Below are positions 1 to 26,124 of a DNA stretch of 26,124 bases, piece by piece. The number at the start of each line of letters is the position of its first letter. The first letter of the stretch is position 1. This stretch comes from Saccoglossus kowalevskii (taxonomy: Eukaryota; Hemichordata; Enteropneusta; Harrimaniidae). Location of the stretch: contig NW_003151757.1 of NCBI RefSeq assembly GCF_000003605.2, positions 169,502 through 195,625 of the forward strand. Reading direction: 5' to 3'. Both the position numbers and the translations under genes were made by a program. The notes under the pieces are model-generated. The model saw only the letters and a list, made by a program, of their open reading frames with translations. It was not told the origin of the DNA and did not search any database.

Positions 1-465
1 GTGTTGTCACTTTGTAATACCGTATTCAGTATGGCTATATTTTACTGTATCACTCTATATTCCTCGATTCTACGAATGTGTAAATTGCATGAGTTAAAAT
101 AATCAACCACACTTGACATCCTTCCTTATTTAGCATTGATAGAAGTTGCAATAACATACGCAACAATACAGAAAAACAAAACAAGCTATTTTCTGATTGG
201 TCTGACTGTTAGATGTTAAAAGTAGGTAGCCAATCAGGAACAATCTTGCAAATAGCTTTGCATTACCTTTGACTCTAATCTAGGAACTGAAGAAGTCCGA
301 GAACACAAAACACTCCACTGATTATAATCTACACAACAAACCATAAGAACACACTAGTACACGGCACAAAACAGTCAAACCAGTAAGATGAAGATGAATT
401 TAAGACATGTACAGTAAGTTGCATAGTGTATACATGTTAATGCATATATAATGTTCAATCTTCAG
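1..465 (+). other. Intron sequence upstream of the first recognised exon
   Basis: No exon is visible here. The block 189..419 is closely similar to 2725..2936 in the intron after exon C, sharing a TTCTGATTGGTCTGA start, a GTCCGAGAACACAA centre and a GATGAATTTAA end. The first recognised exon begins with a phase-1 acceptor, so at least one more exon must lie to the left of the window. Confidence 0.6.
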
Positions 466-543
466 ATACCAGTACGAATTTCACCACTATATTCACCACC
501 GATGCGGGTTCTGCATTTGATATGACGACTACGATAAAATCAG
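466..543 (+). CDS. Stalk mini-exon A (phase 1-1, 78 bp)
   Basis: The exon lies between acceptor TTCAG and donor G|GTAAAT and reads as 26 codons, starting with a split codon (G+AT, Asp). It is rich in Thr and Ser, contains an N-glycosylation sequon (Asn-Phe-Thr), and ends Met-Thr-Thr-Thr-Ile-Lys-Ser. That ending is nearly the same as exon C's, marking A and C as related copies. It would form part of an extended, O-glycosylatable stalk. Confidence 0.75.
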
Positions 544-3500
544 GTAAATACACTCAGTCACGTAGGTAGGTACATTAATATATAGTTCTCTCAATGATTT
601 GTTAATTTCTTGAAGATATATGTCAGTCATATATTTGGTTGTCCATTATTATTTTGTTATTTTCTGTTATATTTTATATTGTATGAATTATTAATGCGGG
701 TATCAGTGTTGTATGACGATCTTTTCACGTATTTATATTTTTCAAGTCATGTTGCTACTGTACATGTGGAACACTCTGACCACGATCACACGTGCGATCT
801 AGACCTATTTTTAGAGTAGGTGACGTAGAACTATAATTCACGTTTCATTTCGTGTTTGTATATTTAACTATATAGTTGTCATGAGTTGTCAAGATTTCTA
901 GTCCAGTCAAATATAAATCTCGATAGCGTCTGAAGGAATTTGTTTTATTCGTGCAAGTGTGTGTGTACGAAAACAGTAGGATTATTCCTAGAGGGACCCT
1001 ATAGGCAGGCATTTTACCCATGTAAGGGAATGATTTCATGGTTTTCGAATTACTATAATTCCAAGAAATTGTTGAAATGTTACCTCAATTTTCCGCAAAC
1101 TGTTTGTATCACTTAATTTGTGACCTTTCACATCCGTTTGCAGAATATATTATTCTTAGCCAATAAATAGCAATGAATAAAAATACACATAGATAACCAG
1201 TCGACCGTAAAGTACGGATTAATGCGGTATTCAAAGCATACCTGGGGTAAAAACGCAAAAAGCAGTTGACCCGTATTCTAATGTGTATTTCGCATACTGA
1301 ATGGTGAGACAATAGACCCATCCAGATACATCAAATGATGTTCTTATTGTAACGGATGTGATGTTTGGGAATAGAGAACAAAATTAGCATGCGTCATTCT
1401 CACACACTGTCAGGTACATGTAACAGGCAGAAATTAATGTATTACAGTTACCATACAGAGACTATTATACCAAAACCAAATATCCGTCGAGATCTCGTTC
1501 AACGCGGGAATACCATGATTATATTGATCAGCGGAATACTGAGTGGAATAGCATTAGAAGTACAAAACAAATCACGTGAATTCTCGCCTTCAACGAGATC
1601 TCGGAAGTCTTGAGTACAAGAAAAAGACATTTAAATAGAAATTTAATAAATAAAACCCACTTATTGACCAGTTTATATTGTGATATACACAATGCGACTG
1701 CAATGTCAATGACATTGTGCACAGTATTGTATATTATTTGTGCATTTGCTATACAATGATATGTTGGTAAAAAGATGCAGTCTCCTAACGTAGACTGAAG
1801 CTACTAGTCACAAGTCAAACCACTGCTTCTTAAACAATCACCAAATATTAGCCAAATAACCAAATAACCGCACAATTCTCATTATTATTTCTCTCATAGA
1901 TGGAAGTTCACTTGCGTATACTGCAAGCGTTTTCGCCACAGATATGAAAATTCAATACAGTTCGAACATTCCAACTACACTGGAGCAAGGTATATATGAC
2001 ATTTTTAATTAACTAACAGAACAGATAAAGACAACGATATAATGTAACAAAAAATGTGTCAATATGTCAATAGCCGATCAATACGTATTTGGCAGTTGTA
2101 CAATTATATAAATGCAAACAATAGAATCAAACACATAAGACCTTTTTGATGAACGCAAAAACAATTGTATAATATTGAAAAACACAACAGTAGTAAATCA
2201 TCATAAAAATGGTCGTCAACTTACATTTTTGGATGAGTACAAGTAACCAATATGAAAACCGGTCAACGGAGTTTAGTGGGTCAACCCCTACCCTGGGTTA
2301 GTGTGCCACAGACGCAATAAAAATGCCAATTCCACTGGCAGAGATTGAGATGAGTATAAGTAACCAATATGAAAACCGGTCAATGGAGTTTAGTGGGTCA
2401 ACCCCTACCCTGGGTTAGTGTGCCACAGACGCAATAAGAATGCCAATTCCGCTGGCCGAGATTCATTTACTATGCGACTCCTGAGGAACCTTGGTTAAGG
2501 TCTGCAGGTGCATCAAGTAACCAATATGTCGTGGTTATTAAAGGTTGAGCGATCTAGTATCTTCAAACCAATAAAGAGCGATACACACGCCTGATCTGTA
2601 TTTTAATTTGTGTATTTCTTGATTTCCGTAGAGAGAAATACAGAGCTGGAAGAAACAACTCTTGGTATGACAACGATTAAATCAGGTAATATGTCACGTG
2701 ATACATTGGCATTATATATTATCGCTTTCTGATTGGTCTGAATGTTGCTAGGGCAATAGGTAGCTAATCAGGAATAATCTTGCGAGTATCTTTGCATTGA
2801 CTCTGAATCTAGATATAGTGATTCACGAGGTCCGAGAACACAACACAATCCAAAAGAACAAAACAATTGACTAGTACACTACACAATAAAGTCAAATCTG
2901 TACGATGAGGATGAATTTAAATTATGTACAATCAGTAGAAGAGTTCTCATTGTCGTGTGATACCGCAAAAACCAACAAAATCTTAAAAGCATGGAAACGC
3001 CGAAATATCGCTGAGAGCGAAAAAGCCATGTGATATTTTTACTTTAAAAATAGTATTTTGTTACCATGGCCTTATGTAACCTTGGTATGCAATTTTATTT
3101 ATTTGTTGCTACCCTTTTACATCAAGGGCTTACTAATACGTAATTAGGAGCAGCAATACAATTACTGGAAACAGACAATTTAAAACTTAAAGGAAGTACA
3201 AGAAATTGGAACTTTCAAAACTTAAAGAAAATACAAAAAAATGAATCTTTTAAAGAATAAAAATGCAATACAAATGATGCTAACACTATAATCAATGTAA
3301 AAAAAAAACGGTTTCAGGAACCAAAATAATTTGTGTGACATTCTCGCTCTCAAAGCGGTTTTGCAACAAGACAAATTGTTCGCCACCATATCTCCCTCCC
3401 AGATGAAATTAATGACGATTTCCTTGGCTGTTCTATTTGGAGATCTGCAAGAATTAAAAGTCAGTGTAAACATAGTCACATGACACCGAGGGTTTGACAT

Positions 3501-6500
3501 AAATCCAAGAGTATACAGAAGACCCCTTAAGTTGACAGTGATTTGAAAAGCATTGAATATTTGTGAGTTCTGTTCTTCTCTAGACATTACTACATCAGAT
3601 ATGCCTACTACTATTCAGATGGCACCGACAACGGTTATTTCTACTGCAGAGGTACTAGCAGGTAGGCAGCATGTACATCAGTAAAACAGTGCAAAACTTG
3701 TATCAGGTAGACAACGCTTTTTATCGCTTGTAATCGTCGTACATATATTTTTGACGCGATGATCTTTTACTCTTGAAATTGGAGAAATAATGTTTTTTCG
3801 ACATTGTTCCAATCATTTTACATACAGTCGTAACTAAAATAAATATTAATTTGACAATTATTATTATGCTAATGCAAAATAGCGAAGAATTATATTTCTG
3901 TGACTTTAGCTTTGACTAATATTCAATGTCCTTGAGAATTACTTTGTTTGTATAAAAAGGAAAATAAACAACCACACACGTCGACGGTAAACCAAAAAGT
4001 GACCAAAACCCTCAGCTTTCTTACGCAAAGCATTGTGGATTCAAAAACGCCATCAACGGCCAAAACCACATTTAATCAGACTCGGTGGAGGGCGCTATTT
4101 AATTGAATTTCTAAATCAAAATACATTTAAATCTGTTTGTAATATTTTCTATTTAACTTGTGCCATACATAACACTCATATGTGTGTTGTTGAACTTCAC
4201 AAGTTTTTATTTGTTAAGAATAAGTTTCGTGTGCATGTAAGTTTCATGTCTGACACCACCTCTGGTTTTCTCTCAACAATTTCTCTCAACACATCTCACG
4301 ACTCGATTAATTTATAGTATATTTCCGTTTGATTTAATTTACACCTTTCAAAGCATTGTAATAGTAATATTCCGAGTTACTGCCTTTCCTAATTGTGTAA
4401 ATACACACCACAGTGAATAAGACAGATATTTCCCGTGACAGGGCGCTATTAGAGCTTAATAATTCAAAGAAAATTTGCAAACAGATCTGCCCCCCCCCCC
4501 TCCAAAAAAAACAAACATGTTTTTATGGAAACCAGGGTATATTGGCATGTCAGCTCTGTTTTCGTTGTTTTTTGTCCGAAATGTTTCTGAAAAAAGTATT
4601 TGGTTACTGATCATGAGTAAATACAATGGGCCGGCGTATGTTATTGTGCGTTGATTGTTCGCTGCTGCATGCATATACCCTATTAACTAGCCCCATTTTT
4701 GCAGTAGAGTAAAAAAACAGTATTCCAGAAATTGTCAACAACGCGTAGTACACTTTATGTCACAGGAGTAAATATGTCATCACCGATTCAATAAATCAAT
4801 AAAGCTAATAAAATAAAAAATAAAAAAAAATAAAAATAAAATACCCAATAAAGCACCAGGTTTAAATTCAATGATATGATATTTTTTTAAATACATTATT
4901 TGCAAATGCAAACATAAAGTTTATACATTTTACTTATTAATTGAGAAATTTGTTTGAATCTTATATCATATTATAAAATAGTATACATTATGCTCTTCTA
5001 TAGAGATTACTACTATGGGCTCAGCTACTACTGAGATGGGAATACCAACATATATTTCTACAACACCCGAACCAGGTACACAAATCTATTATTACATTAT
5101 GTAATTTGTTTAAAGCAAACAACAGACACAGGGCAAGGTGTGTGAACAACTTGGTCAGCATATTAAAATTATAAAAGTTTGGGCTAATAATTTTCATTGA
5201 AAATAAATACATACTTGTATATTTAATGTCGTCCGAACTGAAACATATTATAGATAACAACAAAAGTATTAGCATTAATAATATATTTAATTTGTTATTA
5301 ATTTTTGAAAACCACATTAGCCATTTTATAACTGCATTATTTTTTGATCACTTTACATGCCTCGTACTATACTTTGACTATACTTTCTTTTGTATATGAA
5401 CAGAAAAAGTCTGTAAATGTCTCACCTTATACAATAGTTGTCAATGTTTATTAGACATTTGTTTGTGTTCACATAGCGATCAGTACTACCAGCTCAATTG
5501 TTACTGATATGGGACTGCCGACTGCTATTGCTACAACATTGGAGCCAGGTATGCAAAACATCATCAGCAAAAACACATACTATTAGAACGTGTGAGGTGG
5601 TCTGATTTCAGGAATCTTTTTAGCAAAAGTAGTAGGACACCGTCGCCAATATTTTACATGCAACATCGGACAATTAATTATTATATAAATCAATATTAAT
5701 TTTACAAATTCATTATTATGCTAATGACAAATCAGCGAAGAATGATTTTTGGGACTTTGAATTCGAAAAGTAATCTTCAATGTCTTTGATAATGTTTGTA
5801 TTCATATGTATGTTGCTGAACTTCACAAGTTTTTATTTTTTTAGAATAAGTTTCATGTGTAAGTAGGTTTCATGTCTGATACCACTTCCGGTTTTCTCTC
5901 AACAATTTCCCTCTTCAACACATCTCACAACTCGACTATTATTCTATAATGAATTGTTAACCCATTAACGATAAAAAAGTCAACTACCTTGAAATAATTG
6001 AATATAAAATCAGTATGGTAAGTTCCAATTTTCCAGTGAATAGACAGAGGTGAACTGATTTCAAGAATCTTTTTAGTAAAAGTAGCAGGACACCGTCGCC
6101 AATATTTTACATGCAACATCGGACAATTAATTATTATATAATGAATTGTTAACCCATTAACGATAAAAAGACAAGTAGCTTGAAATAATTCAGTATGAAA
6201 TCAGTATGGCAAGTTCCAATTTGCAAATTTATTTTTTATTGTGTACAATGTTCTCATGATGAAATCAACATATTTATTCATTCGATGTTATAATGGTCTA
6301 TATAGTGAGTTAAAAACGTTGATATGGGTATTGTTAACAGACATGAAGACACATGGCACTGTCACTACTGTCCAATGGACACTACCGAGCGTAAGTACAA
6401 TGGGATGGGCAACGTCGTCAAAGCCGTTCACTGACATGAAACTAGCAACTGGTATGTATCATTTGTCAATGAACTAATTATTCAACATACCATATAAATT

Positions 6501-9500
6501 GAATCCATGCCTTTTTATTAATTTACATAATAGTTATTTGTTGCGGTTATTCTTTTCACCGCCAGAATTTCTTGTTCAAATGTGTGTGCACGTTTTTTAA
6601 CATTCTTCAATATTTTATGAGATGAACCCTAATTTAAGTTTCGGCCAATATCCAGCTTGTATTCAACAAATTTGGTTATTGTCGTTCCAATCGTTTGTCG
6701 GAAAGTGCAGATTATAAACAGGACCATTTTGTCAATGAAAAAAGGTACTGGTGGTAAAGAGGTTACGATTTACCAAATAATTTGCACACAACTACAAATT
6801 GATTTCCCGTAGCCAGATATCATAAAACATTTCTTAAGAAATAATTATGGTTGGCGATGTCAAGCCCAATTATAAACATTAGGATTGTCAATATCATGAA
6901 GATGTTATACTCCAGCAACTTCACAGCCTTTTTATACGTTCAAAATTACAGTCTGAACACGTGTATGTCACGTGTTCTTAACACAAATTACTCTAAACCG
7001 TTTGATATATACACAACACAAAAATATTATTATATGATCTGTCACAGACGCCTTGGAACTATAATCCCAATTGTCCAATTTATTGTTGTTCAATAATTTC
7101 TATGAATGGGATTTTCATTACACCATGAAATTTATGAAACTGGGTCGTCATTGTTATTTAATATTGAAAAATGTGGAAACTTTATAAAGAAAATAATTAT
7201 ATTCATTCTTAAGTTGTAGTCTTTACAAAAAAAATATAAAATAAATAAGTTAATATATTGGCACAGTATTGAGAGTGTACATTTACGTTTAAGTCAGCAG
7301 AACTATTTTGTTATATTTAACAAAGAAAGCAATCAACGCACAAAAAAAGATACTCTGGATATTCACGCTGCTATGTGGTTAATTAAAAATACTGCAGTGT
7401 GCGCACGAAGGCAGTAAGACAATCAATCAACCCGTCGCGAAGATCAATGCGTTTTCGGACTGTGCGCGTCCGATGTAAACAAAAGAAGGTTTTCTCTAGT
7501 GACGTATACGTGAAGTGTATTTCCAAATGAGGGAAACCTTTTTAATGAAAACATCCATAGAGCAGATGGACTGTCGACATGCCATAACGGACAGTGTGTA
7601 TATATTCGTAATCAGTTAAGAGTTCGACCACGGCGTGTTGGGGTGTTTTTCTTGCAACTGTTTGCGACCTCTGGTCAGCACTCCGTAGATTGTACACCAT
7701 GATAAAGACACCACAATATACGGCTATTATATGTCAGTTTAAATTTTTACTTGCAGATGTTTCCACCCAGTCGATGTCTACACACATCCAAACAACTGCA
7801 ACTATCTTAACAACATCTATTCAAGGTAATACATAGTGATCAGATCAATTGAAAATTAAACTTTTGTTCTTATATTACGCAAAATATAATAATCTATAAC
7901 TATATTTACAACTATTAATCGTTTATTAATAGAATTATTGATTGATTGGTTGGTTATCGATTGACTTATTATTATTAACTGATTGATTGTTGATTGATTG
8001 AATAATTTATTGATTTGTTCATCAATTATTTGAGTAATTGAATTGTTGACATTTTGAGGTGCATCTGTTTTATCTGCCCAGATCGTCGGTACATTGATAT
8101 AGGGTGCACTCGATACCGTGTGTACAACGATACACAGTCATGGGAAAGTTCAAAGATACTCTGTGAAAAACGTGGTGCGGTGCTTGCTTCATTAAGCACC
8201 AGTACCGTCAGCGATGGTGTCATACAATTCATCATAGATAATAATATAGACGATGGTTTGGTTGACTATTGGATTGGACTCAATGACATTTCACAAGAAG
8301 GGAGTTACATATGGATCAACGGTGACCCATTCGTTTACACGAGCTGGTCACGAGGCAATCCGAATAATTTTAGAAATCAGGACTGTGGCCAGCTGTGGTA
8401 AATGTAAAAAGAGTTATAGGAAAAAAACATTTAACTTTCTTAAACCACTATATTTTTGTGAGAACAAGATTGGCATACATATTTTCCATACTACCCTAGT
8501 GCACCATTTGTTGATTGGACACTCTATCCTCACGAACAAAACGTTTGTTTACTAACCGTTTTGCTGTGTAGTCATTTGTCTGATACATATTATACCGTAC
8601 TGTTGCCATTGTTAGAATAATATGTTACGCCATTTCTATATTTATTAGATGAAAATATATTGTGTTCATTCTGTCCTAAATCTGCAAAACATTTTAAAGT
8701 TAAAATAAAGCAAAAAGTCAGTACAACATTTATCGCATTGTTTGACTTGAAAATAAAAAGTATATTCATACTGTAACAACTGAAGCACCTTAAAACTCGT
8801 TTTACTCCGTGTTTTGTCTGTATGTTTTAGAATGATATTATCTTTGAACAGCACATACGATGAGCAAAATATACAAGCGACGACATAGTGCCATGTTCGA
8901 TTTTACCTTTAATAATTTGCACGTCGTGTCGCAAAAATAAATAAAAACAAACTTTTCTACTATAATATCAACACCCGACTGTGGCTTGTTCTGTAGTTCT
9001 GCAGGTAAAACAAACCTACAAAATATGGCTAATCATTTATGACAGAAATGGTTCGGCGTTAAATGGCATAACGTATATAAAAAAAGTGAATTATCTTCCA
9101 ATTATGTATCTGTGTACCATATTAAACTAAGATAATTAATATATAATCAATAAAACTAATTAAAATATACACAAACAATTGGATATAAAAATATGTGAAA
9201 TCATTCAGTTAAAAAGGTTTCACTTAAATGAGTGGTATACTTAAAACTGTATATACTGAAATACAAATTACGTAATATACATATAACTATTTCACTGTAC
9301 AGGACTTCTCGAAACTTCCAATGGGACGATGCTGCATGTTCTCGTAGCAAGGGTTACATATGTCAAAGGTAAGTTGTTGTGTAGTTTATCTATCTAATGT
9401 GGTCAACTATTTATTTATTCATCATGATTTTTATTAAGTATAATTAATTCCAAGTAGGCGCTCGCGCCCATGGCTAGGTTTTACGAATTCGAATCAAATT

Positions 9501-12500
9501 ATCCAGAAATCTTGGATAAGATTAAATTAACTAGGAAAAATTATTTCCGTGACAGGAGCTTTTCCTGTTGCATAACGACATAGAGGAACCCGTTCGATGT
9601 TAACAATGCTAGACATTATAGGCCCACGAAACAGTTGTATATCTATATTATTCATGTATTCATTGCGATGTGTCATTTTGAAGACACATTTACGTTCCCA
9701 GCCCTCTACTAATCAATCATCACTCCTACTAGCTCAATCGATCATTGTGGTGACGTTACTACACCGGGATTGACAACTGGTAAGTGACCTTCATCCATGA
9801 GAATAATTTAGATGATAGAGAAATATAATATATTTGGAACTAATCAAATATATATTATATTCGGAATTGGCCTCTGAGACCTTGTTCATAGTTTGATGGC
9901 CACGCGAATAGGTTTGGTGCCCTCCCCTAATGTTGTTCTCTTGACGTTTGTAATGCCATTTGGAGAAGTGAACACGCTGGCATTCTAAATCAACTTTGGT
10001 AAATGAACGTGTGTCCTCGCGTCACAGGAATGATCAGATAAAAGCTTATCACTCGCCACCTCAATATTAAGAGCACTGCCTTGTTTTAAAATTACTAAAG
10101 ATAGTTCCAAACGAAATGTGCATCCTGAACGCATGTTGTTTATATTTCTGTCCCACTATTGCTTTCTCATCTCTAATATTCCAAATATCATGATTACAGT
10201 GATCAGACAAACACTGAAAACTATTTTTTTTTAGTTTTGTCCCACTCAAATCATTTATTGTTTCGGTCTAACAGGTATCCTCACTATTATAATCCATAAG
10301 ATATCATATGAGGTTATTACGAGGATACCGCAAAGTGTGCACGAAGACTGTACAGCGAAGTATCAACTGACGCGCAGCGGAGGTCGATGCAACCGTGAAC
10401 TGTCTGAAAGCCTACTTGCGGTATCCTCGTAATAACCTATTATTATACAACTTTTCCTCCCAAAGATACATCATGGGAATGCCAAAATACAAAAAAAAGT
10501 TTAGAACAGATTGAGCGAACTACTTTGTATGGGGTCTAATCAAACTCTGGGGCTGCCTTGTTTATTTTTATTATTAGAGAACGCTTAGGCGCGTAGTTGT
10601 TCCATATTTGGAATTCGAATTTTCCTAATATGGTAGCATAGAAATACCCAATGCAATACCACAAAATTACTACACGCTGTAACTTGTGGCGTTACGCTGA
10701 CAGAAGTATAATAATAGTTTGTACTTTTTATTTTTTCAGATGCCATCAGCACGCACGTTTCATCTACTGCAATGGTCTCAACTACACCTGATCCAGGTAT
10801 GATGTAACGATAGGATTGCAAGAAATGTTAGCCTTGTTAACAAGAACATTGATGTTCTTAATTATTCACCACTGAAGACTGACTAGCGGCGCCAATGTGA
10901 ATTCGGGGATACAAAGATACTAACTTGCTTACACGCTCATTAGACCCCCCCCCCCACACACATACCAACCACCAACTGACTCTCCGGTTAAACAACCAAC
11001 CGGCCAACTATCTGACCTATTGATCAATAGGTGATTTTCCGTACAATTGCGAGATCTCGCGAGATGTATGAAAGACGCGCGTCGAACGTCTGCCGCAAAA
11101 GTCGAACGATTTGATTTTAAACTAGAATTTTTTTATTTTGTAACTCGCACCGACCGGCCGATCTTCGACAGAGGAATATTGCTTCCGAATACCCTCATTT
11201 AATTGAAATTGCCTATCATGAAATGTGGACAGCACATTATTAAGCATGGAAATGCCCCCCAAAGTACTTCGCGTTTGTCGAATCCCACGCGATGTTTGAC
11301 GCCACTACGACGATATGACCTTTGTTTGTCCTGTTTTTACGCTCGATTTCACGCATAACGCGTGATTCTCGCAGTGGAGAAAAATGGTCTATTAGCCGGT
11401 TGATATGATTTTGTTTTACCTATTTAGATCGCCGGTACATTGATATCGGTTGCTATCGATACAGTTTTCATAACGACACCCATTCATGGGAAAGTTCTAC
11501 CACACTCTGTCAACAAAATGGCGCCGTGCTGGCTTCATTAAGCACAAGAACCGTCAGCGATGGTGTCATACAATTCATCATAGATAATAACATAGACGAT
11601 GGTTTGGTAGACTACTGGATTGGACTCAATGACATTTCACAAGAAGGGAGTTACATATGGATCAATGGTGACCCATTCGTCTACACAAACTGGTCACGAG
11701 GCAATCCGAATAATTTTAAAAATCAAGACTGTGGTCAGTTGTGGTGAGTCTAAAGAGAATCGTATGAAAACAGGTGACTTTTTTAAACCGCTGACAATTT
11801 GTATTAGAACAAACCCGACTTAAAATGTTGATTTTAAATACTGTACCAGTTAAATAAAAACGTGGAATAATAATAAGAAAAATGTTAAGTTTCTGCTGAT
11901 AAAAATAAAATTTAAAGTAAATTAGCTCATTTAAAATTGAATTCGCACATAGATATATATGCATTTAAACAATGCTATTTAAATTTCTTTAAGTATGTTA
12001 GGGTAAGCGTAATTAATTAACAAACTTCCACATAGTAGACTGAGTATAATAGTATTCAGCAATCATGGATGGTCGCTTGACCTTTTAATTTCGACTCGCT
12101 CGTTTCGTTGTATAACATTCCTTTTCAATCATGAACTGCGTATAATCTCATTGTGAATATAGCTAAGCTATACTCGGTGTAACGAAATTACAATTAAGAT
12201 AATTTGCATAAAACAAATTTTATTTAAAATTAACATGTCTCATGTTTGCGATTAGTATCTATTTCTACTGACCAGTCTTGCCGTGGATTATTTTGACATT
12301 TAGTTTAAATTCACTTACCGTTATTGACATTTTGTGCAACGCGGACATGTGAAAACACTCATTTTGGTTCTTCTTGTATGTGACTTTGTTGAAATGAAGT
12401 TTTGAGGTCATCGATATGAATGCAAAATATTGCTCGAATTGCCGAACCCTGCGGTAAACTAATAGTCGGTTTGCAGGAATTAGTTGGTGGCGTTACAGTT

Positions 12501-12991
12501 TCTGTCACATTATGATAAATATAAAAAGAATTCGGGGATACAAATACTTTTCAAAGTTAACTAAAAGATAATAAAAACTAATAAAACACACATACACTAG
12601 GATAGGAATACATGTCAAACTAATTTAATTGGTTTAAAATGTGTCACTTGAATAATGAGTGATAACCGTATACAATGTAAATACAAGATACGTAATATAC
12701 ATGAGTTTGTATAACTACTTCACACTACAGGACTTCTCGAAACTTTCTATGGGACGATGCTAAATGTTCTCGTGACAAGGGATACATATGTCAAAGGTAT
12801 GTTTGTGTTTTACTCATTCCCAGCATGCAACCTTGATGATAGTCGGTGGAGATCTCTTGAGGTGATGTAATTTCCGTTTGCCATTGCGCATGCGCATTAA
12901 GACAGACATGTCGTCTTGTTTATGCATTTTTAGTAGTCCCCTTAAGCGCTTGCAGATTAATCGTATTTATTTATATACATACATATATATA

Positions 12992-13083
<92 letters not shown>

Positions 13084-16000
13084 ATAGTATTGCAAATCAG
13101 GTTAAATCCGGTAAAAAAATCTTATGAATAATCGATACAGGGTATTTCCATTCCATTCAAAGTGAATTCCGGATTATTTGAACTCTATAATTCGAATAGG
13201 GTGTTTTATTCCACTCAATTACGTAATTATTCTTTGCTAATAATCTCTTGAATGAAACGTGTTGAATCATAGAAGCTTTGTAGTTTGTATACACTAGTGG
13301 CCCACGGCTCAATTGTGCGTTTAGACTATCGAAGCGTACATTGCAATTTTGAAGATTAGAACAAAGTTTGATTCACGCGACCACTTTTACCTTTTTTGCA
13401 TCTACTAATTAGTTCTTATCACTATTGTTATTAGCTTCCTCGATAAATGCAGCGAAGTTACTACACTAGGATGGACAAGTAGTAAGTAACTCGATTTGTT
13501 CTACAATATTCTTATGAGTTATTCAGGTGATAGGGCATACATTATTCTGAATCGATCGCTGTGACCTCGTTAAATGTGAGATGGCTACACAAATAAAGTG
13601 ATTTGTCGTTCAACTGTGAGGTTTCGTATATTGCGTGAACGATTTCAATGATTTGAACTTTGAAGTTCCGTTTTTATAGACCAACACGGAACTGCCGGTC
13701 TTCCAGACAGGACTACGGCTTTGAGATATTCTGATTTAATTAAAATTAAACACCAGTATATGTATACAGCACATTATTGAGTATGGAAACAAGCTCAAAA
13801 TACTTCGCGTTTGTCGAATACCACGCAATGAACGAAAAACGGTGTATTGTCTGTGCCTTCTGTCGCAAAAAAAAATCCGTTCTTTTTCATGGTCGAATCC
13901 ACTGTTATCCAGACGTATGTAACTACGGTGTTTACAACAGTGAACGCAAAAGCGATGGCGGTAGAGAATGGAAATTGAAATGGACATTTTTTTTGAGAGG
14001 GCAATTATTATTGTTAATTCTATTAAACAATGGTTGACAGTAATTACACATTCTAATCATGGACACATTAGTATTTGGTTCATGATCCGTAAATCCAAAT
14101 TGTTGTTGAACAAAATATTCATCACGGTGTCCACTGAATAATGAAAATAATCATTTAAAGCGCGGTGGTCGTCGCGCAGCGCGTGTTCGAATTTCATGTA
14201 AATAAACAATGTATTTTACACGCGTTGTATACGTCGCTATGAGTCCCATATCGAACAGGACGCGGCGCGACGACTGCCACCCTTTAAATGTCGCAGCTCA
14301 ATGACAAAACACGACTTTGTTTTGAACATACTAAAAGTTGATGACAAACAAGACAAGCTAAACGCATGCATGTCAGTTTCCGTTGGCCAGAGATGTTCGC
14401 TATTTTGGTATTTCATTTTGTTAAACATAACCCAAATATAATCTGCCGCAGTTAAAAATGCGATAATTTCAAAATAGCAATTCACTTCTCATGAGTATCG
14501 AGAGGTATGAATGAAATAAGTTTCGTTCTCACTCGAAGGCCTAAAAAATACTTGTTCGCATTGTCTATATGTAGACGGTCTTGTCTTCACTTTGGTGAAA
14601 TTTGTGTTTTGTAGTTAGTCAGGAAAGTTCAAAATTCAAATTGTTAATGTGGTTATGTGTTAAACAATGTGTAAGCCACGTAAATAAAACTAATAATAAC
14701 AGTTTTTATTTTTTATGTTACGTTGTTGTTTGATATAAACAAACTGAACGTCCCGTTCTTTAGGAACGTGCTGTCCGCAAGTGTGATGATCTAGGCGCAA
14801 TTTGTTTATTATACATGAAATATACACCACTGTGTATATAATATACTTAATATGTTTTGATATTTTAAATTACTCTTTTTAGTAAAGCTGTACAATATTG
14901 AATATAAATATACACACAAGCATAATATTTGGGTTTTTGGTGCTCATGTTTCTTAAAATACATTCAAATGTATTACTTAGTAAAAGTGAACTATTCTCAG
15001 GAGCGGACATCCGGGCATTTTCACCGTATGGCAACCATCACGGTGAAAACAAAGGCCGAAAACTCTCAGAAAACGATACTTTGGGATGGTTGTTGAGACT
15101 CCCCTGAGCAGTGTAATAAGGTTACCCCTGCGTGTATAACGCTTATAAATTTGATTGTTCAGGATTGCTTTAAAGTTGAGTTCCTGTTGTTTTCTTTAAT
15201 TTTCACCGGCCCCCCCGCTCGGCGTTCTGCGTTCCTCCAGCAGCGCGCGCAGAGCCCTTAGAAATGCGTGGTACAGTGGTGCGCGTCTTAGCAACGTGGA
15301 ACGTCTTGTGACGTAGCTTCGCCCCTGAGGATATAACTGAATTGATCCACTCTAAAAATGCGCCCTCTAGTGACAGAAAATTACGTATATGGTTGAGAGC
15401 AATGTTACTCAAATCGATCACGGTGTTTAATTAGATTAAAATTTCCACTGAAAAACAACTACTAATCAAAGGAATATATACCACTTTCTCGGAAGTAGTG
15501 AAACTGGGGTGCAGTAATACTCCTGTTTTATCATATGGATAGTCGATAGAATTGAACTTAAAGTCGATTGGTACACCAAGAAACACAATATCACGCGTTA
15601 CGTTACACCCAAAAACGATATGCGCGCGCGCATGTGAAACGCCGTACCTTCGACTTCCGGGAATGTGGTCCATGGACCGATGGAGAAATGTATTACAAAT
15701 TATCATGTCACAGGTGCTCAATAATTGCCCAGCATTCGCGGCGGATATTTGCTTCTGGTGTGTATTGTATTGTGTACAGGTATATTTGCTACAATCCATA
15801 AAATGTCACAGTTTGTTTTTATTTTTACTTTCAGATGCCATCAGTACACAATTTATACCTTCGCACGTTTCATCCACCGCAATGATCCCAACCTCACTGA
15901 TCCAGGTATGATAGACTGATAAGATTACACGAAATGGTAGCGATTGTCAATAAAGTCTTGGATGTTTATAATTATTAATAGAGAATCAATCAATAGTGTT

Positions 16001-18294
16001 CAGTGTGACGTCAGGATTGCAAAGTCTTTTCTGAGCTACATACTAACTAACTCGCACGCTCACATACCCCCCCCCCAATCCACCCATTGACCCACCGACT
16101 AACCAATAAAATGACCAAACGGCCAGCTATCCGACTTATTTATTGATTTTTGTTTAATCTGATCAGATCGCCGGTACATTGATATTGGTTGCAATCGATA
16201 CAGTTTTCATAACGACACACATTCATGGGAAAATTCTCTCACGCTCTGTCAACAAAATGGCGCTGTGCTGGCTTCATTAAGCACCAGTTCAGTCAGCGAT
16301 GGCGTCATACAATTCATCATAGATAATAACATAGACGATGGTTTGGTTGACTATTGGATTGGACTCAATGACATTTCACAAGAAGGGAGTTACATATGGA
16401 TCAACGGTGACCCATTCGTTTACACAAACTGGTCACGAGGCAATCCAAATAATTTTAGAAATCAAGACTGTGGTCAGTTATGGTAAGTATAAAAAGAATC
16501 GTATTTGAAAGAAAATAGCTCGTTGAAACAGCATTTGCACATAGAAATATATACATTTAAACAATGTTATTTTCAATATGATGTCGCATGTGTACTATTT
16601 TGTAATGTAATGCGTTATTATGTACTAACTGGTCGATGGTCTTGTGAACAAATTAAAAACATAAATTGTGAAAATTTGTTACTTTACTTCTGTTTCAAGT
16701 TTTGCATTTATTTAAAATTCTACTCTTTAGTCTTTTTCAATCACTTAAAAGTTTGTCAAGTCTTCTTGTGTGAAAAACATACCACGAATACAATTTTTTT
16801 AGATCACCTTATATTTGATATATAATCTGTGGCAATGATTTTCAAATACTTCATATGCTACACAAAAATACACAATTGAACCTACAGTTGTCTTTACCTC
16901 TGTTGAAAAGCAATTCATATCTGAGCCAGATACATTGCTTGAACAACAATATTAAATAACTATCTGCATAACATTTTTACGAAAAGTAAAAACAAAACAA
17001 AAACATGTTGATACAAATTAAGCACTTTTAACAAGCGTTTTACTCCAGTGTGTTGTTTTTATGTTTCAGTCAAGAAAGAAGCGATTATAATTGATTAAGA
17101 ATCAAACATATACTGAGATTAAACTATAAAAACATGAAAATTACAACAGTGCCACATTGAACTCGTAGTCAATTCTACGTCTGATAGCGTGCTCATCATC
17201 TCGCGGAAAGTACCTCGAGCTCTCAAGATAGCGCTGTCTTTTGCCCAGTAATAATCCTACAAAACGACTGTGTTTATTTGAGGAAGAATACAGATAAAAT
17301 TAAACTAAACTATAGATATCATTCAATCATTTACGGCAAAAATGTGTCCGAATTAGAGAACACAACTTACATAAAAAGTGTAGTATCTTTCCAATTATTT
17401 ATCCTGATATCACATTAAACACCCGAGCTAAGAAAATTAAAATAAGAATAATAAGAACATAATCAAAATATAGACAAAGTATAGGATATGAATACATGTC
17501 AAATGTATTAGTTTAAAACGTTTCATTCGTCTTGTGACGAGTATACCTAATACTGTATACACCTGAACGGATTACCTTATTCCTTAACACGAGGTAATTT
17601 ACATATATCTGCTTACCTTATTCCTAAACACGAGGTAATTTACATATATCATAACTACTTCACTGTACAGGACTTCTCGAGACTTTCTATGGGACGATGC
17701 TGCATGTTCTCGTAGCAAGGGATACATTTGTCAAAGGTGAGAAGATATTTGTTTGTTTGTTTGTTTGTTAAAACAGCACGTTTTTAAAATTTACAAATGT
17801 ATTTTGCTCTGTAATGTTCTGTTAAGTTCAGTTCGACTTTTAAAACAACACCTTTAACCTTATATGCAAATGCTGCCGAGACCTCGTTGATTGTAAGAAG
17901 CTTAAGGCTATGGAACCTATTTCCTCCATTTAGTGTTTCAATGTGAAACTAGTAAATATACATCTGACACTTGTTTTGCAAATTTATTTGCATAGTGGGT
18001 GTACACGGCTCAGACGTTTCATAATTTAATCAATTCTCCAAAATTGAGCTTTCCAAACATCCACTTGTTTTCTTGATGTTCAATTTCATTGGTGGATTTC
18101 CGAGCACATGCAAATCATGCGGAAAGACTTCTTCATCGTATATTGCACAGTATTGGTATTGCCCATTTCTGTTAGGTGAATCGATATAACAATAAAACGC
18201 AATTTGTGATTAGGAAGTCGTTAACTACAACTTTAAATTTCCTCTTTCATTTTACTGTTATTTATTTTACAGCATGACGTGTTTGGATGAATAA
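466..18294 (+). CDS. Gene 1 (5'-partial): mucin-like stalk plus three C-type lectin-like domains, multi-exon
   Basis: This span covers all exons assembled here; the introns are not coding. The order is eight Ser/Thr-rich mini-exons, CTLD1 (two exons), linker, mini-exon, CTLD2 (two exons), linker, a broken mini-exon, CTLD3 (two exons) and a terminal exon with TAA at 18292..18294. The 14 other internal exons have GT..AG borders and join in a continuous frame if the mini-exon at 15835 is skipped. The stalk is about 208 residues and each CTLD about 127. CTLDs are extracellular folds used in carbohydrate or protein recognition. With no membrane helix before the stop, a secreted lectin is the likely product, but the start codon and any signal peptide lie left of the window. 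The family call is firm from the WIGL, W-x-NG, NPN, DC, WDD and YIC motifs. The ligand and biological role are unknown; innate immunity or mucus are possibilities only. Confidence 0.85.
544..1899 (+). other. Intron A-B, no exon recognised
   Basis: AT-rich intron of about 1.36 kb. Short open frames occur on both strands, but none has a motif or suitable splice borders. No repeat partner was noticed elsewhere in the window. Confidence 0.5.
1900..1989 (+). CDS. Stalk mini-exon B (phase 1-1, 90 bp)
   Basis: The acceptor CTCTCATAG and donor CAAG|GTATAT enclose 30 codons in phase 1-1. The product is Ser/Thr/Ala-rich with scattered Tyr residues and ends Pro-Thr-Thr-Leu-Glu-Gln. It is less Thr-dense than the other stalk exons, so it is called from phase, length and position as much as from composition. 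Confidence 0.65.
2232..2463 (+). repeat. Direct tandem duplication, 117-bp period
   Basis: Two adjacent copies start at 2232 and 2349 with only a few substitutions, for example AGTACAAG against AGTATAAG and TCAACGG against TCAATGG. Each copy contains CCCTACCCTGGGTTAG, a self-complementary core. The repeat lies in the intron between stalk exons B and C and has no coding frame of its own. Confidence 0.9.
2632..2685 (+). CDS. Stalk mini-exon C (phase 1-1, 54 bp)
   Basis: The acceptor TTCCGTAG and donor TCAG|GTAATA enclose 18 codons, beginning with split G+AG (Glu). The product is Glu/Thr-rich and ends Gly-Met-Thr-Thr-Ile-Lys-Ser, matching the end of exon A. The acceptor is followed by AGAG, so nearby AGs could shift the start, but only the first keeps the shared phase. 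Confidence 0.7.
2725..2936 (+). repeat. Intron block duplicated from or to 189..419
   Basis: About 210 bp are collinear with 189..419, with substitutions and small indels. The matching ends are CTGATTGGTCTGA on the left and GATGAATTTAA on the right. The two copies flank exons A-C, which indicates that exon-intron modules, not only exons, were duplicated during stalk growth. Confidence 0.75.
3584..3661 (+). CDS. Stalk mini-exon D (phase 1-1, 78 bp)
   Basis: The acceptor TTCTCTAG and donor GCAG|GTAGGC enclose 26 codons, beginning with split G+AC (Asp). The product is dense in Thr, Ser and Pro (Ile-Thr-Thr-Ser, Met-Pro-Thr-Thr, Ala-Pro-Thr-Thr). An internal GAG|GTACTA could act as a donor but would end in phase 0 and break the frame. 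It resembles exons E and F. Confidence 0.75.
3840..4318 (+). repeat. Intron block, copy 1, with a ~220-bp insertion
   Basis: The parts 3840..3953 and 4174..4318 match 5690..5948 in the intron after exon F (TATTATGCTAATG, TTGAACTTCACAAG and GGTTTTCTCTCAACAATTTC are shared). About 220 bp at 3954..4173 are absent from the other copy, so they were inserted here or deleted there. The extra segment contains GGAGGGCGCTATTTAAT and a short open frame that I do not regard as coding. Confidence 0.7.
4488..4520 (+). repeat. Poly-C / A-rich low-complexity tract
   Basis: A run of about ten C is followed by CTCC and an A-rich stretch. Similar poly-C runs occur at 10947, 16068 and 21602, which suggests recurrent slippage tracts in this genome. 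Confidence 0.85.
5004..5075 (+). CDS. Stalk mini-exon E (phase 1-1, 72 bp)
   Basis: The acceptor TTCTATAG and donor CCAG|GTACAC enclose 24 codons. The product is Thr-rich and ends Ser-Thr-Thr-Pro-Glu-Pro. It has the same length as exon F and aligns with it residue for residue (Glu-Met-Gly-Ile-Pro-Thr against Asp-Met-Gly-Leu-Pro-Thr), so the two are recent copies. Confidence 0.8.
5477..5548 (+). CDS. Stalk mini-exon F (phase 1-1, 72 bp)
   Basis: The acceptor CACATAG and donor CCAG|GTATGC enclose 24 codons, beginning with split G+CG (Ala). The product is Ser/Thr-rich and ends Ala-Thr-Thr-Leu-Glu-Pro. It is a tandem paralogue of exon E only 400 bp upstream. Confidence 0.8.
5598..6226 (+). repeat. 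Overlapping direct repeats in intron F-G
   Basis: The segment 5598..5687 recurs at 6049..6142 (GACACCGTCGCCAATATTTT in both). The segment 5937..6035 recurs at 6130..6226 (TGAATTGTTAACCCATTAAC in both). The order of shared blocks shows stepwise local duplication of about 200-450 bp. The block 5690..5948 also pairs with 3840..4318. Confidence 0.85.
6341..6451 (+). CDS. Stalk mini-exon G (phase 1-1, 111 bp)
   Basis: The acceptor TTGTTAACAG and donor AACTG|GTATGT enclose 37 codons, the longest stalk exon. The product is Thr/Ser-rich with three Trp residues and the ending Lys-Leu-Ala-Thr. An inner GAGC|GTAAGT at 6394 is a strong potential alternative donor, but it would leave phase 0 and break the downstream frame. 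Confidence 0.75.
6452..7756 (+). other. Intron G-H, no exon recognised
   Basis: A 1.3-kb AT-rich intron. Apart from a diverged foldback-like segment at about 7391..7480, nothing coding or repetitive is recognised. Confidence 0.5.
7391..7480 (+). repeat. Possible diverged copy of the foldback repeat
   Basis: The pattern ATACTGCAGTGTGCGCACGA, then GGCAGTA, then CCGTCGCGAAGATCAATGCG follows the same order as the interior of the foldback at 10311..10438 and its relative at 23171. Similarity is by eye and the terminal arms are lost. Confidence 0.4.
7757..7825 (+). CDS. Stalk mini-exon H (phase 1-1, 69 bp)
   Basis: The acceptor TTACTTGCAG and donor TCAAG|GTAATA enclose 23 codons. About half of the residues are Ser or Thr (Val-Ser-Thr-Gln-Ser, Thr-Thr-Ala-Thr, Leu-Thr-Thr-Ser). 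It ends in phase 1, exactly as needed to join the CTLD1 exon at 8082. Confidence 0.8.
7917..8044 (+). repeat. GATT-rich simple repeat
   Basis: Irregular GATTGATT / TTATTGATT repeats run up to about 40 bases before the CTLD1 acceptor and may supply its branch-point and pyrimidine-rich context. Confidence 0.8.
8082..8397 (+). CDS. CTLD1, first exon (316 bp, phase 1-2)
   Basis: The exon starts after CTGCCCAG and stops at CTGTG|GTAAAT, the Trp codon being split across the intron. It encodes CTLD residues 1-105: Cys9, a sequon at Asn16-Asp-Thr, Trp21, Cys28, the WIGL core at 64-67, Trp78 with Asn-Gly at 80-81, the Asn-Pro-Asn loop at 93-95 and Gln-Asp-Cys at 100-102. Compared with CTLD3 the first 125 bases differ at 27 positions and the remaining ~190 at about 9 (hand count). 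Unlike the other copies, position 88 is Ser rather than Asn, which removes the Asn-Trp-Ser sequon. Confidence 0.92.
8398..9302 (+). other. Intron within CTLD1
   Basis: AT-rich. Its last ~200 bp resemble the ends of the corresponding introns in CTLD2 and CTLD3 (TTTCAC..., AATATACAT, ...AACTATTTCACTGTACAG), so introns were copied with the exons. Nothing else is recognised. Confidence 0.6.
9303..9368 (+). CDS. CTLD1, second exon (66 bp, phase 2-2)
   Basis: The acceptor CTGTACAG and donor CAAAG|GTAAGT enclose the end of the fold: Trp113-Asp-Asp, Cys118, Gly-Tyr-Ile-Cys126-Gln. The first G completes the split Trp106 codon. Trp-Asp-Asp takes the place of the usual Trp-Asn-Asp calcium motif. Confidence 0.92.
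9733..9779 (+). CDS. Post-CTLD1 linker exon (47 bp, phase 2-1)
   Basis: The acceptor CTACTAG and donor AACTG|GTAAGT enclose the exon. Only phase 2 is open; the phase-1 reading meets TGA. It adds Ser-Ser-Ile-Asp-His-Cys right after the CTLD and then a short Thr/Pro tail. It has the same length and phases as 13435..13481, and converts phase 2 back to phase 1 so that the next module fits. Confidence 0.8.
10311..10438 (+). mobile_element. Foldback element with perfect 23-bp inverted arms
   Basis: The arm 10311..10333 is the exact reverse complement of 10416..10438; the core is TTATTACGAGGATACC. The inside is also partly self-complementary (GACTGTAC against GAACTGTC), so the 128 bp can form a long hairpin. 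It is the left part of a longer dispersed repeat (to about 10713) whose second copy is at 23160..23545. There is no coding capacity, so it is a non-autonomous element. Confidence 0.85.
10439..10713 (+). repeat. Dispersed repeat body attached to the foldback, copy 1
   Basis: This segment aligns along its length with 23283..23545 (TACATCATGGGAATGCC, TTCCATATTTGGAATTC, TGCAATACC and CGCTGTAACTT shared). It contains a near-palindrome at about 10602..10633. It ends about 26 bases before mini-exon 10740. Confidence 0.85.
10740..10796 (+). CDS. Mini-exon before CTLD2 (phase 1-1, 57 bp)
   Basis: The acceptor ATTTTTTCAG and donor TCCAG|GTATGA enclose 19 codons, Ser/Thr-rich, ending Ser-Thr-Thr-Pro-Asp-Pro, like stalk exon E. 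It is the intact counterpart of the broken mini-exon at 15835..15905. Confidence 0.8.
10947..10959 (+). repeat. Poly-C run
   Basis: About thirteen C, followed by ACACACA. The surrounding intron (about 10906..11030) is homologous to 16010..16160, which also has a poly-C run, so the tract predates duplication of the CTLD module. Confidence 0.85.
11030..11396 (+). mobile_element. Candidate inserted element in the intron before CTLD2
   Basis: The matching intron before CTLD3 runs straight through this point with about 370 bp fewer. The ends are imperfect inverted repeats: GTGATTTTCCGTACAATTGC on the left against the complement of GCAGTGGAGAAAAATGGTC on the right, each bordered by an AATAG-like sequence. 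The interior (11090..11310) resembles 13610..13835, suggesting a repeat family. No coding frame. Confidence 0.6.
11428..11743 (+). CDS. CTLD2, first exon (316 bp, phase 1-2)
   Basis: The exon lies between CTATTTAG and GTTGTG|GTGAGT. It has the same length, phases and motifs as CTLD1: Cys9, Trp21, Cys28, WIGL, Asn-Pro-Asn at 93-95 and Gln-Asp-Cys at 100-102. It has two sequons, Asn16-Asp-Thr and Asn88-Trp-Ser. Its N-terminal third is close to CTLD3 (12 differences in 125 bases by hand count) and far from CTLD1. Confidence 0.92.
11744..12730 (+). other. Intron within CTLD2
   Basis: AT-rich, about 1 kb. The end (ACATGTCAAACTAATTT..., AATATACATGAG, ACTTCACACTACAG) matches the CTLD3 intron. GAATTCGGGGATACAAA at 12531 repeats the sequence at about 10901. 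No exon recognised. Confidence 0.6.
12731..12796 (+). CDS. CTLD2, second exon (66 bp, phase 2-2)
   Basis: The acceptor CACTACAG and donor CAAAG|GTATGT enclose it. It encodes Trp106 (completed), Trp113-Asp-Asp, Cys118 and Gly-Tyr-Ile-Cys126. Lys117 and Asp121 differ from Ala and Ser in the other two copies. Confidence 0.92.
12972..13081 (+). repeat. (TA)n / (CATATA)n microsatellite
   Basis: CATATA-type units pass into a pure (TA) run of about 60 bases at 13021..13080. The open frame across it is meaningless repeat translation. It is likely to vary in length between individuals. Confidence 0.95.
13435..13481 (+). CDS. Post-CTLD2 linker exon (47 bp, phase 2-1)
   Basis: The acceptor TTATTAG and donor AAGTA|GTAAGT enclose it. 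It reads Ser-Phe-Leu-Asp-Lys-Cys after the CTLD, then a Val-Thr-Thr tail. It is paralogous to 9733..9779, with Cys in the same place. Its final A joins AT of the CTLD3 exon to give Asn if the mini-exon at 15835 is skipped. Confidence 0.8.
13610..13900 (+). repeat. Diverged relative of the 11030..11396 element
   Basis: Shared words in the same order include GAACGATTT, CAGCACATTATT, TACTTCGCGTTTGTCGAAT and CCACGC. An 86-codon frame crosses it, but the counterpart at 11245 has a one-base shift in the same place, which argues against conserved coding. Confidence 0.6.
14155..14287 (+). mobile_element. TTAA-flanked MITE (short)
   Basis: TTAA at 14155..14158 and 14284..14287 flank inverted ends: AGCGCGGTGGTCGTCGCGC on the left against AGGGTGGCAGTCGTCGCGC read from the right (about 18 of 23 matching, including a 10-base identical block). 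The TTAA target suggests piggyBac-type mobilisation. No coding capacity in about 125 bp. Confidence 0.8.
15209..15310 (+). other. GC-rich patch in an AT-rich intron
   Basis: It contains CCCCCCCGCTCGG, CAGCAGCGCGCGCAG and several CpG, well above the local GC level, followed by GCGCCCTCTAGTGACAG at 15360. It may be the edge of an old transposon. No gene or RNA is recognised. Confidence 0.4.
15835..15905 (+). pseudogene. Frameshifted mini-exon before CTLD3 (71 bp)
   Basis: Borders TTTCAG and TCCAG|GTATGA match the intact mini-exon 10740..10796. Relative to it there is a 15-base insertion near the start and a net one-base loss near the end (ACTACACCTGATCC against ACCTCACTGATCC), giving 71 bp instead of a multiple of three. 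Included in phase 1, it would shift CTLD3 and reach TAA around 16279. It is either always skipped, or used to make a shortened protein, or the site carries an error. Confidence 0.7.
16167..16482 (+). CDS. CTLD3, first exon (316 bp, phase 1-2)
   Basis: The acceptor TGATCAG and donor TTATG|GTAAGT enclose it. It has the same layout as the other copies: Cys9, sequons Asn16-Asp-Thr and Asn88-Trp-Ser, Cys28, WIGL, Asn-Pro-Asn and Gln-Asp-Cys. From codon 43 on it is nearly identical to CTLD1 even at synonymous sites, whereas the N-terminal third matches CTLD2. Confidence 0.92.
16483..17670 (+). other. Intron within CTLD3
   Basis: AT-rich, 1.19 kb. The right end is homologous to the CTLD1 and CTLD2 introns. 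An open frame of 106 codons just after the exon is low-complexity intron translation. A 41-bp tandem duplication lies near the acceptor (17572..17651). Confidence 0.6.
17572..17651 (+). repeat. 41-bp tandem duplication beside the CTLD3 acceptor
   Basis: TTACCTTATTCC followed by ACACGAGGTAATTTACATAT occurs twice, starting at 17572 and 17613. The second copy ends about 20 bases before the exon. The other two CTLD introns have one, more divergent, version. Confidence 0.85.
17671..17736 (+). CDS. CTLD3, second exon (66 bp, phase 2-2)
   Basis: The acceptor CTGTACAG and donor CAAAG|GTGAGA enclose it. It encodes Trp113-Asp-Asp, Cys118 and Gly-Tyr-Ile-Cys126, ending in phase 2. The donor is followed by GTTTGTTTGTTTG repeats. 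Confidence 0.92.
18273..18294 (+). CDS. Terminal coding exon with stop
   Basis: After the acceptor TTATTTTACAG, phase 2 reads Ser-Met-Thr-Cys-Leu-Asp-Glu-stop. It is the counterpart of the linker exons, with a Cys shortly after the CTLD, but ends the protein. No downstream exon is needed. Confidence is limited by how short it is. Confidence 0.75.
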
Positions 18295-23159: not shown

Positions 23160-23545
23160 ATATATTATGAAGTTATTACGAGGATACTGCGAAGTTTGCA
23201 CGAAGACAGTACAGCGGTGTATCGACCGACGTGTAGCGGGTGTCGATGTGACGGCGTACTGTCTGAATGTATATATCCGAGTATTATACATCTTTTTCTC
23301 CCAGGAATACATCATGGGAATGCCGAAATCCAAACGTTTATAATAGATTGAGCAAACTTCTTTGTGTGGGGTCCGGTCAAACCCTGTGGCAGCCATGTTT
23401 TTTTTTGTATTATTAGAAGACGCTTACTCCCGTAATCGTTCCATATTTGGAATTCCCGTTTTCTAATATGACAGGATGAAAATACCCAGTGCAATACCGC
23501 ACGCTGTAACTTATGTCGTTACGGTGACATATGTATAATAATTAT
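23160..23545 (+). repeat. Dispersed foldback-containing repeat, copy 2
   Basis: Homologous to 10311..10713 over its whole length. The left part keeps GTTATTACGAGGATACTGCG and an inner palindrome (AGACAGTAC against GTACTGTCT), but the right arm is mutated to TATATCCGAGTATTATAC. The body shares AATACATCATGGGAATGCCG and TTCCATATTTGGAATTCC. A 151-codon open frame (22896..23351) runs across it and is rejected as a gene. Confidence 0.85.
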
Positions 23546-23984: not shown

Positions 23985-24052
23985 ATGGCGGAGGAAGGCG
24001 AGACTAATGGTACATCTTCACTGGAGGATATCACTGACAATGCAGAAGATAT
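23985..24052 (+). CDS. Gene 2 exon 1, start codon to phase-2 donor
   Basis: ATG lies in CAACATGGCG, a good animal start context, with no in-frame ATG upstream. It encodes 22 codons, 7 of them acidic, plus AT of a split Ile codon. Donor GATAT|GTGAGT is strong. Confidence 0.7.
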
Positions 24053-25572: not shown

Positions 25573-26124
25573 GTAAGTAGTTCATTACAACTTTTCCGTA
25601 CAGTAAAATCGACAACAAATATCAATTTTAAACTATTTATGTAAATAATGTTATCACAAATGTACAGATGCTAAAATAAATAAGCAATTATTTCTGGTGA
25701 AAGATTGAATGCTTCTAAATAAGCCCTAACAAGTAGAGAGAAGTGGACCGTAACTCGATTTCCGATATCAAAAAAACTGAATTTACATCCTAGTAAACAG
25801 TCATCAAATCACGTGTTGCACTTTGTATTTAAAAATATGATCGTATGAATAGTTGTCTATAGACTGTCTTTACATATATGAGGGTTAAAAAAACACCTGT
25901 TCGAAAAATACTACTTCTACTGGCCTACTAGTATCAAAAATGTATTCTACATTAACAAGTCGATGCCTAGATGGCTATCATGAACATATAAACTGACTTT
26001 TGAATTTGAGTTGTTCTACGAAGTTCGTCGGTCGAGTAACAACACGAGACACCACACGAGTCATCACACGAGTCATCACACGAGTCATCACACGAGTCAC
26101 CACAAGATTCACAACACGAGTCAT
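25573..26124 (+). other. Gene 2 intron 3 (start), runs out of the window
   Basis: AT-rich, no further exon recognised. It ends in the 12-bp minisatellite. The next exon should start in phase 1. Confidence 0.5.
26042..26124 (+). repeat. 12-bp minisatellite reaching the window edge
   Basis: About seven units of ACACGAGTCATC, the middle ones perfect and the outer ones changed (GAGACACC, AAGATTCACA). The array is cut by the right edge, so its full length is unknown. As 12 is a multiple of three, all frames stay open through it. Confidence 0.95.

Follow-up and report, generated by a model that had tools for sequence, protein, structure and literature searches.

Frame-neutral Thr/Ser-rich mini-exons as a putative modular stalk in a C-type lectin gene of Saccoglossus kowalevskii

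When a run of very short exons can be left out of a gene in any combination without disturbing its reading frame, does that symmetry speak for alternative splicing or for the way in which the exons arose? The question is raised by a DNA stretch of 26,124 nucleotides from the hemichordate Saccoglossus kowalevskii (the window; positions 169502-195625 of contig NW_003151757.1, termed C4174, in an assembly of 572,110,611 bases and 4830 contigs), in which eight consecutive mini-exons, e1 to e8, precede the C-type lectin heads of a gene termed gene A. All eight lie on the forward strand and both begin and end in phase 1: e1 (466-543, 78 base pairs (bp), DTSTNFTTIFTTDAGSAFDMTTTIKS), e2 (1900-1989, 90 bp), e3 (2632-2685, 54 bp), e4 (3584-3661, 78 bp, with an in-frame alternative acceptor at 3599), e5 (5004-5075, 72 bp), e6 (5477-5548, 72 bp), e7 (6341-6451, 111 bp, with the weakest acceptor of the eight) and e8 (7757-7825, 69 bp). 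A sequence-only reading of this DNA had proposed these positions, lengths and phases together with a Thr/Ser-rich content, and all of them were recovered; AG precedes and GT follows each exon, and the phase-1 reading is open in 8/8. The joined product comprises 208 amino acids (aa), including 54 Thr, 24 Ser and 10 Pro (Ser plus Thr 37.5%, Pro 4.8%), and each exon contributes between 18 and 37 Thr/Ser-rich residues. By comparison, Ser plus Thr average 15% in open stretches of 24 codons (1515 overlapping stretches taken from non-exonic parts of this DNA), and 3.6% of these reach 30%. The e1-e8 product thus lies well over background in Ser and Thr, as in a mucin or Pro/Thr/Ser (PTS) stalk, with Pro being low. 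The proposal that this stalk is located N-terminal to lectin heads was likewise borne out, as e8 joins the lectin exon 8082-8397 in the correct frame and three domains of Pfam family PF00059 are present.

The sequence-only reading had further held that any subset of the eight exons could be skipped without a change of frame. This is the case for 256/256 subsets, all of which are in frame and open, giving 117 distinct stalk lengths that range from 0 to 208 aa. The stalk exon set is larger than e1-e8 and includes a ninth symmetric unit at 10740-10796 (m2) and a frame-broken tenth at 15835-15905 (m3). The last base is G in 26/26 stalk exons called in gene A and its neighbours, genes B and C. Because every stalk exon ends in G, the junction residue is fixed by the downstream exon alone, and over all 676 ordered exon pairs it takes one of three values (D, E or A), with no stop arising in any pair. 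All but m3 of these 26 exons came from a scan for symmetric exons, so that the divisibility by three of 25/26 is biased and the any-phase scan described below is preferred. The term "freely spliceable", as applied to e1-e8, describes a structural possibility.

We consider it likely that e1-e8 constitute the modular stalk of a lectin receptor, the length of which was set mainly in evolution by gain and loss of units. The stalk exons would hold the lectin heads off the membrane via their Thr/Ser-rich residues, which are probably O-glycosylated. Tandem duplication of exon-plus-intron units would lengthen the stalk, and a splice-site mutation would remove a single unit in frame and thus shorten it. 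Because the units are of phase 1-1 and end in G, either event would preserve the frame, and the exon that follows would determine the residue at the junction. Regulated alternative splicing may be superimposed on this process, but the exon phases can be explained without it.

Chance, duplication and splicing as sources of exon symmetry

Splice sites were scored with a generic matrix, and the score limits were set just low enough to admit e1-e8, the same limits being applied to the reverse strand and to shuffled sequences. The forward strand of positions 1-8081 yielded 26 candidate exons, 10 of which combine symmetry, an open phase-1 reading and a Ser plus Thr content of 29% or more; eight of these are e1-e8, and the other two are versions of e1 and e4 that use alternative sites. 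The reverse strand of the same interval gave 10 candidates and none of this kind, and 200 dinucleotide shuffles gave a mean of 9.6 candidates, with a mean of 0.015 (maximum 1) of the symmetric Ser/Thr-rich kind. Several splice sites are weak by the generic matrix, and a scan with strict limits recovered 1/8 exons (e4 only), a result that weighs against the finding and would be expected if e1-e8 were chance open intervals belonging to no gene. Against such an origin stand the strand asymmetry, the shuffle control and the fact that genes B and C and three other loci repeat the pattern, and we assign it virtually no credence; the eight-exon pattern is real and well beyond chance.

The sequence-only reading had also regarded the agreement of eight lengths with modulo three as improbable by chance and had taken it to point to alternative splicing. 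The strand and shuffle controls described above place the pattern beyond chance. As a stand-alone argument for alternative splicing, divisibility by three was rejected because duplicates are not independent. Tandem exon duplication requires symmetric exons, as asymmetric ones break the gene, and symmetry is therefore no proof of alternative splicing; nor are the eight lengths eight independent events, since some of the exons are related and gene B contains repeated copies of an exon of this type plus the adjoining intron. Among the 45 pairs formed by the ten gene A stalk exons, 11 were similar at no more than 20/1000 shuffles, where about 1 is expected, and 4 at 0/1000. Clear relatedness (0/1000 shuffles as good) was observed for e5 and e6 and for e8 with both m2 and m3, weaker relatedness being found for e4/e5 and e2/e6, and that of e1/e3 rests on 21 bp of DNA. 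The match between e8 and m3 at the DNA level covers mainly the acceptor tract and was set aside as a sign of exon homology. The e5/e6 pair displays a non-synonymous rate (dN) of 0.38 and a synonymous rate (dS) of 0.41 over 24 codons in this one pair, as for a spacer in which composition outweighs sequence. Exon-specific conservation in e5/e6 was considered and rejected, the exons being identical at a fraction of 0.69 and the flanks at 0.71 and 0.68 in a forced gapped alignment.

Extracellular modules prefer phase 1-1, and the symmetry of e1-e8 could be a relic of this preference and of duplication, with all eight exons always included in the transcript. The relatedness of e5/e6 and of e8/m2/m3, the duplicated exon-plus-intron units of gene B and the fact that nothing in the DNA requires skipping of e1-e8 are all in keeping with constant inclusion, to which we give a little under an even chance. 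It is opposed by the splice sites of the stalk exons, which are on average weaker than those of the lectin exons, and by m3, a 71-bp exon that, when included, brings a stop into the third lectin head.

Those weaker sites are also an argument for regulated alternative splicing, through which cells would pick subsets of e1-e8, as with CD45 exons 4-6 and CD44 variable exons, and obtain many stalk lengths and glycan densities from one gene, a scheme made feasible by the 256/256 in-frame subsets and 117 distinct lengths and compatible with the evolutionary account. The sites of e1-e8 score lower than those of six lectin exons (one-sided p 0.01), and over four loci 121 mini-exons display a mean score of 6.67 compared with 8.16 for 24 lectin exons (one-sided p 0.002). 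Skipping of m3 is, moreover, the simplest route to reading head 3, and in-frame exon deletions are described for complementary DNA (cDNA) of the schistosome mucin family SmPoMuc (PMC2576457). However, the scores derive from a generic matrix, and copies that are related do not count as independent. The e1-e8 test excluded both linker exons as well as m3, which with a summed splice score of 12.0 ranks first among the 18 window exons scored, and m2 (10.7), both above most lectin exons. The comparison of 121 with 24 exons dropped 10/34 lectin exons for which the fixed geometry failed, and in C1739, one of the four loci, the order is reversed (mini-exons 6.71, lectin exons 3.93, the latter being two exons). 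Weak sites also fit a slow decay of dispensable exons. Regulated splicing of e1-e8 is thus put forward tentatively, as a possibility that we would not favour over its absence.

Gain and loss of units in related loci

The evolutionary account of a modular stalk rests largely on comparison with related loci. Four of the many contigs with lectin matches were examined, comprising C4174 and stretches of C1416, C1739 and C4317 that hold the next best lectin matches. The stretches of C1416, C1739 and C4317 share the gene A-type design, with lectin heads and Ser/Thr-rich symmetric exons. A scan of the four loci in which any phase was allowed (length 42-150, at least 30% Ser plus Thr) revealed phase 1-1 in 113/134 non-overlapping Ser/Thr-rich candidates on the coding strand and in 1/12 on the opposite strand; the 113 include some readings that we do not regard as stalk exons, among them window positions 2342-2413 (117-bp tandem repeat, low scores) and one candidate inside the membrane exon of gene B. 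The 21 candidates of other phases comprise the four 47-bp linkers of C4174, m3, nine of phase 0-1, three inside lectin exons and four that are unassigned. Eight of the nine phase 0-1 candidates are located in C1416, and all eight use the donor of a 1-1 reading.

Duplication of units is directly visible in gene B, which contains four near-identical 60-63-bp exons in a tandem exon-plus-intron repeat with a period of 162 bp (3.4 copies according to the repeat finder). The pattern of one exon per repeat is evident in gene B and in the C1739 and C1416 loci; the units of gene A have diverged and are recognisable as repeats only in part, and its stalk would have originated by similar duplication and loss. 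A profile search of C1416:106001-166000 revealed 125 copies of a 96-bp exon family, all on the same strand, with the profile built from 30 of the 125 and a mechanical test scoring 89 as intact and symmetric and 36 as not.

Single splice sites have also been lost amid otherwise similar surroundings in related loci. Collinear segmental copies in C1416 are 92-97% identical; in these, the donor of one exon, termed P (131858), reads gtaatt in two copies and ttaatt in the third, and that of another, termed Q (140082), reads gtaaat in two copies and gaaaat in the third. Similarly, an exon that is intact in gene C has a counterpart in gene B from which the donor is missing. Such single losses are what frame-neutral units permit, and the exons concerned would be skipped in RNA. 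A processed copy of the gene, as a fossil of spliced RNA, should extend from the first lectin exon through the whole of the second; none of the 135 matches listed (150/298 candidates scored) does so at an identity of at least 45%.

Two further arrangements were noted in these searches. C1416:113000-162500 contains eight lectin domains with dozens of ~96-bp Thr/Ser/Pro exons between them, which, if they belong to a single gene, would encode a very large mucin-lectin. In C4110:4287-36623, near-identical lectin matches recur every ~8 kilobases (kb) on both strands, apparently representing a recent tandem array.

Several observations weigh against the modular-stalk reading of gene A. With Pro at 10/208, the stalk departs from the composition of a classical PTS domain and is to that extent less like a mucin. 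No relative of e7 was identified, and the pair tests do not establish common descent of all eight exons. No convincing dead exon was identified in the introns of the gene A stalk, and some of the 36 C1416 copies scored as not intact are short fragments. The 8.8 kb directly 5' of the window read N, which hides the start of gene A together with its membrane exon. Finally, the frame is kept when m3 is skipped, and head 3 can be read only through such skipping, through a longer 126-bp reading of m3 that is not Ser/Thr-like, or if the assembly is in error at this position. Assembly error is a live possibility because the second lectin domain of gene B (C4174:208949-209264) displays a one-base insertion relative to its first, itself either a defect or an assembly error.

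A broader proposal would have the lectin family keep a pool of symmetric mucin exons (more than 100 readings in the four loci), subject to births by duplication and deaths by splice-site loss, with combinatorial skipping of the living units within an animal additionally tuning both the length of the stalk and its density of glycans while the lectin heads stay the same, for example in answer to microbes. In this extended form the proposal appears unlikely to us.

Lectin heads, membrane topology and neighbouring genes

Gene A is a multi-headed C-type lectin gene, probably encoding a receptor, and belongs to a tandem cluster that comprises at least genes A, B and C. Its three two-exon C-type lectin domains are connected by 47-bp linkers and by the inter-head stalk exons m2 and m3, all on the forward strand. 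Domain 1 comprises exons 8082-8397 (phase 1 to 2) and 9303-9368 (phase 2-2) and is followed by the linker lk1 (9733-9779, phase 2 to 1) and m2 (57 bp, phase 1-1). Domain 2 comprises exons 11428-11743 and 12731-12796 and is followed by lk2 (13435-13481, phase 2 to 1), which resembles lk1, and by m3 (71 bp), a frame-broken relative of m2. Domain 3 comprises exons 16167-16482 and 17671-17736, and a predicted terminal coding exon at 18273-18294 (SMTCLDE followed by a stop) was placed by eye, without independent support. The heads score 63.9, 66.3 and 67.6 bits against PF00059, the cut-off being 22.6 (expectation values from 2.6e-17 to 1.8e-18), and dN/dS between them is ~0.18-0.19. By eye, the heads (8082-9368 and paralogues) read NPN and WDD at the sites of EPN/QPD-type and WND motifs, which we take to be the usual C-type lectin motifs, and sugar binding by the heads is uncertain for this reason. 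The post-head linkers of genes A, B and C, including lk1 and lk2, keep a single Cys (SIDHC, FLDKC, PLDDC and PLNNC), which might form a disulphide linking heads or chains.

The frame-breaking length of m3 and the one-base insertion in the second lectin domain of the neighbouring gene B are what might be expected if gene A were a decaying pseudogene with its stalk exons as remnants. We regard this as very improbable, as the three lectin domains are open with a dN/dS of about 0.19, e1-e8 are all open and retain both splice sites, and both one-base changes could stem from assembly errors.

Genes B and C are located downstream of gene A on the same contig, gene C starting at C4174:214765, and both have Ser/Thr-rich symmetric stalk exons of their own. 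Each carries cytoplasmic and membrane exons at its 5' end, and a genome search with the membrane exon gave matches in two places only, genes B and C. In gene B, on the forward strand, these are an ATG exon encoding a cytoplasmic tail (23985-24052), a second cytoplasmic exon (24661-24694) and a membrane-spanning exon (25410-25572) that ends in phase 1 and has a predicted type II orientation. Basic residues precede the membrane segment and a Thr/Ser-rich stretch follows it, an arrangement that suggests type II topology for genes B and C. Since these two genes open with exons for a short cytoplasmic tail and for a membrane span, gene A most likely encodes a membrane protein of type II. The window is bounded by runs of N, of 8824 bases before and 3802 bases after it, and the 5' end of gene A, if the gene is intact, must lie inside the former.

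Several repeats are also present in the window. Intronic pairs near the stalk exons (190-427/2726-2944 and 3837-4321/5687-5948) are 71-86% identical and represent either duplicated segments or dispersed elements. A dispersed repeat is present in two copies of 75% identity (10301-10715 and 23160-23542), of which the first contains an inverted repeat, and resembles a mobile element. A 12-bp minisatellite (CGAGTCACCACA-like) occupies 26033-26123, at the very end of the window and adjoining the N run.

Known mini-exon systems and significance

The closest parallels to this stalk are found among mucins assembled from short exons. In chicken Muc13, the PTS domain is built from many short exons, one per repeat, and splicing-based control of its length was proposed in 2006; the same paper states that all previously described mucins had the PTS domain in a single large exon and names a zebrafish Muc13 as unpublished (PMC1552070). 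Mucins of the single-large-exon type would change length by repeat recombination. The putative stalk of gene A resembles the mucin domain of chicken Muc13 in being encoded by many short exons, and gene A is not claimed as a mucin of that type. The account of chicken Muc13 lists a signal sequence, a SEA domain, a membrane segment and a tail at the C-terminus, in contrast with the C-type lectin heads observed here and the N-terminal membrane exon of genes B and C. In SmPoMuc of Schistosoma mansoni, a 27-bp exon and introns are tandemly multiplied in ~1-kb repeats of varying copy number, with in-frame exon loss in cDNA (PMC2576457). A short exon duplicated together with its intron is common to both systems, although SmPoMuc are parasite mucins, described there without mention of lectin heads, and their exon loss is seen in RNA, the present losses in DNA. 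Schistosome micro-exon genes (MEG) similarly contain many short exons, the lengths of which are for the most part divisible by three, and long introns separate them (PMC10526429); in that account these are mostly 15-bp exons of secreted proteins, and not Ser/Thr stalks on lectins. CD45 (PTPRC exons 4-6) and CD44 also contain variable exons, those of CD45 encoding an O-glycosylated extracellular part (PMC4730250). They belong to different protein families in which alternative exon use is established; here, in-frame skippability is read from DNA.

Vertebrate C-type lectin receptors (the mannose receptor family, CD209/DC-SIGN and langerin) match gene A in the C-type lectin domain. The best listed matches (60 of 135 sequences) are PLA2 and mannose-type multi-head receptors, with CD209 and langerin further down, and gene A contains three heads with stalk exons also between them. 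No account of such a stalk on C-type lectins was found in the open-licence literature, as judged by titles and the openings of abstracts, and nothing relevant on frog integumentary mucins was found in that literature. Relative to the known mini-exon mucins, the new elements are the C-type lectin heads, the spread over several loci and the visible deaths of exons. S. kowalevskii thus presents a lectin receptor family with frame-neutral stalk exons, including near-identical segmental copies in which one base cost an exon its splice site, and opens two testable questions to study, namely how the length of a glycan stalk evolves exon by exon and whether splicing also varies that length within one animal.

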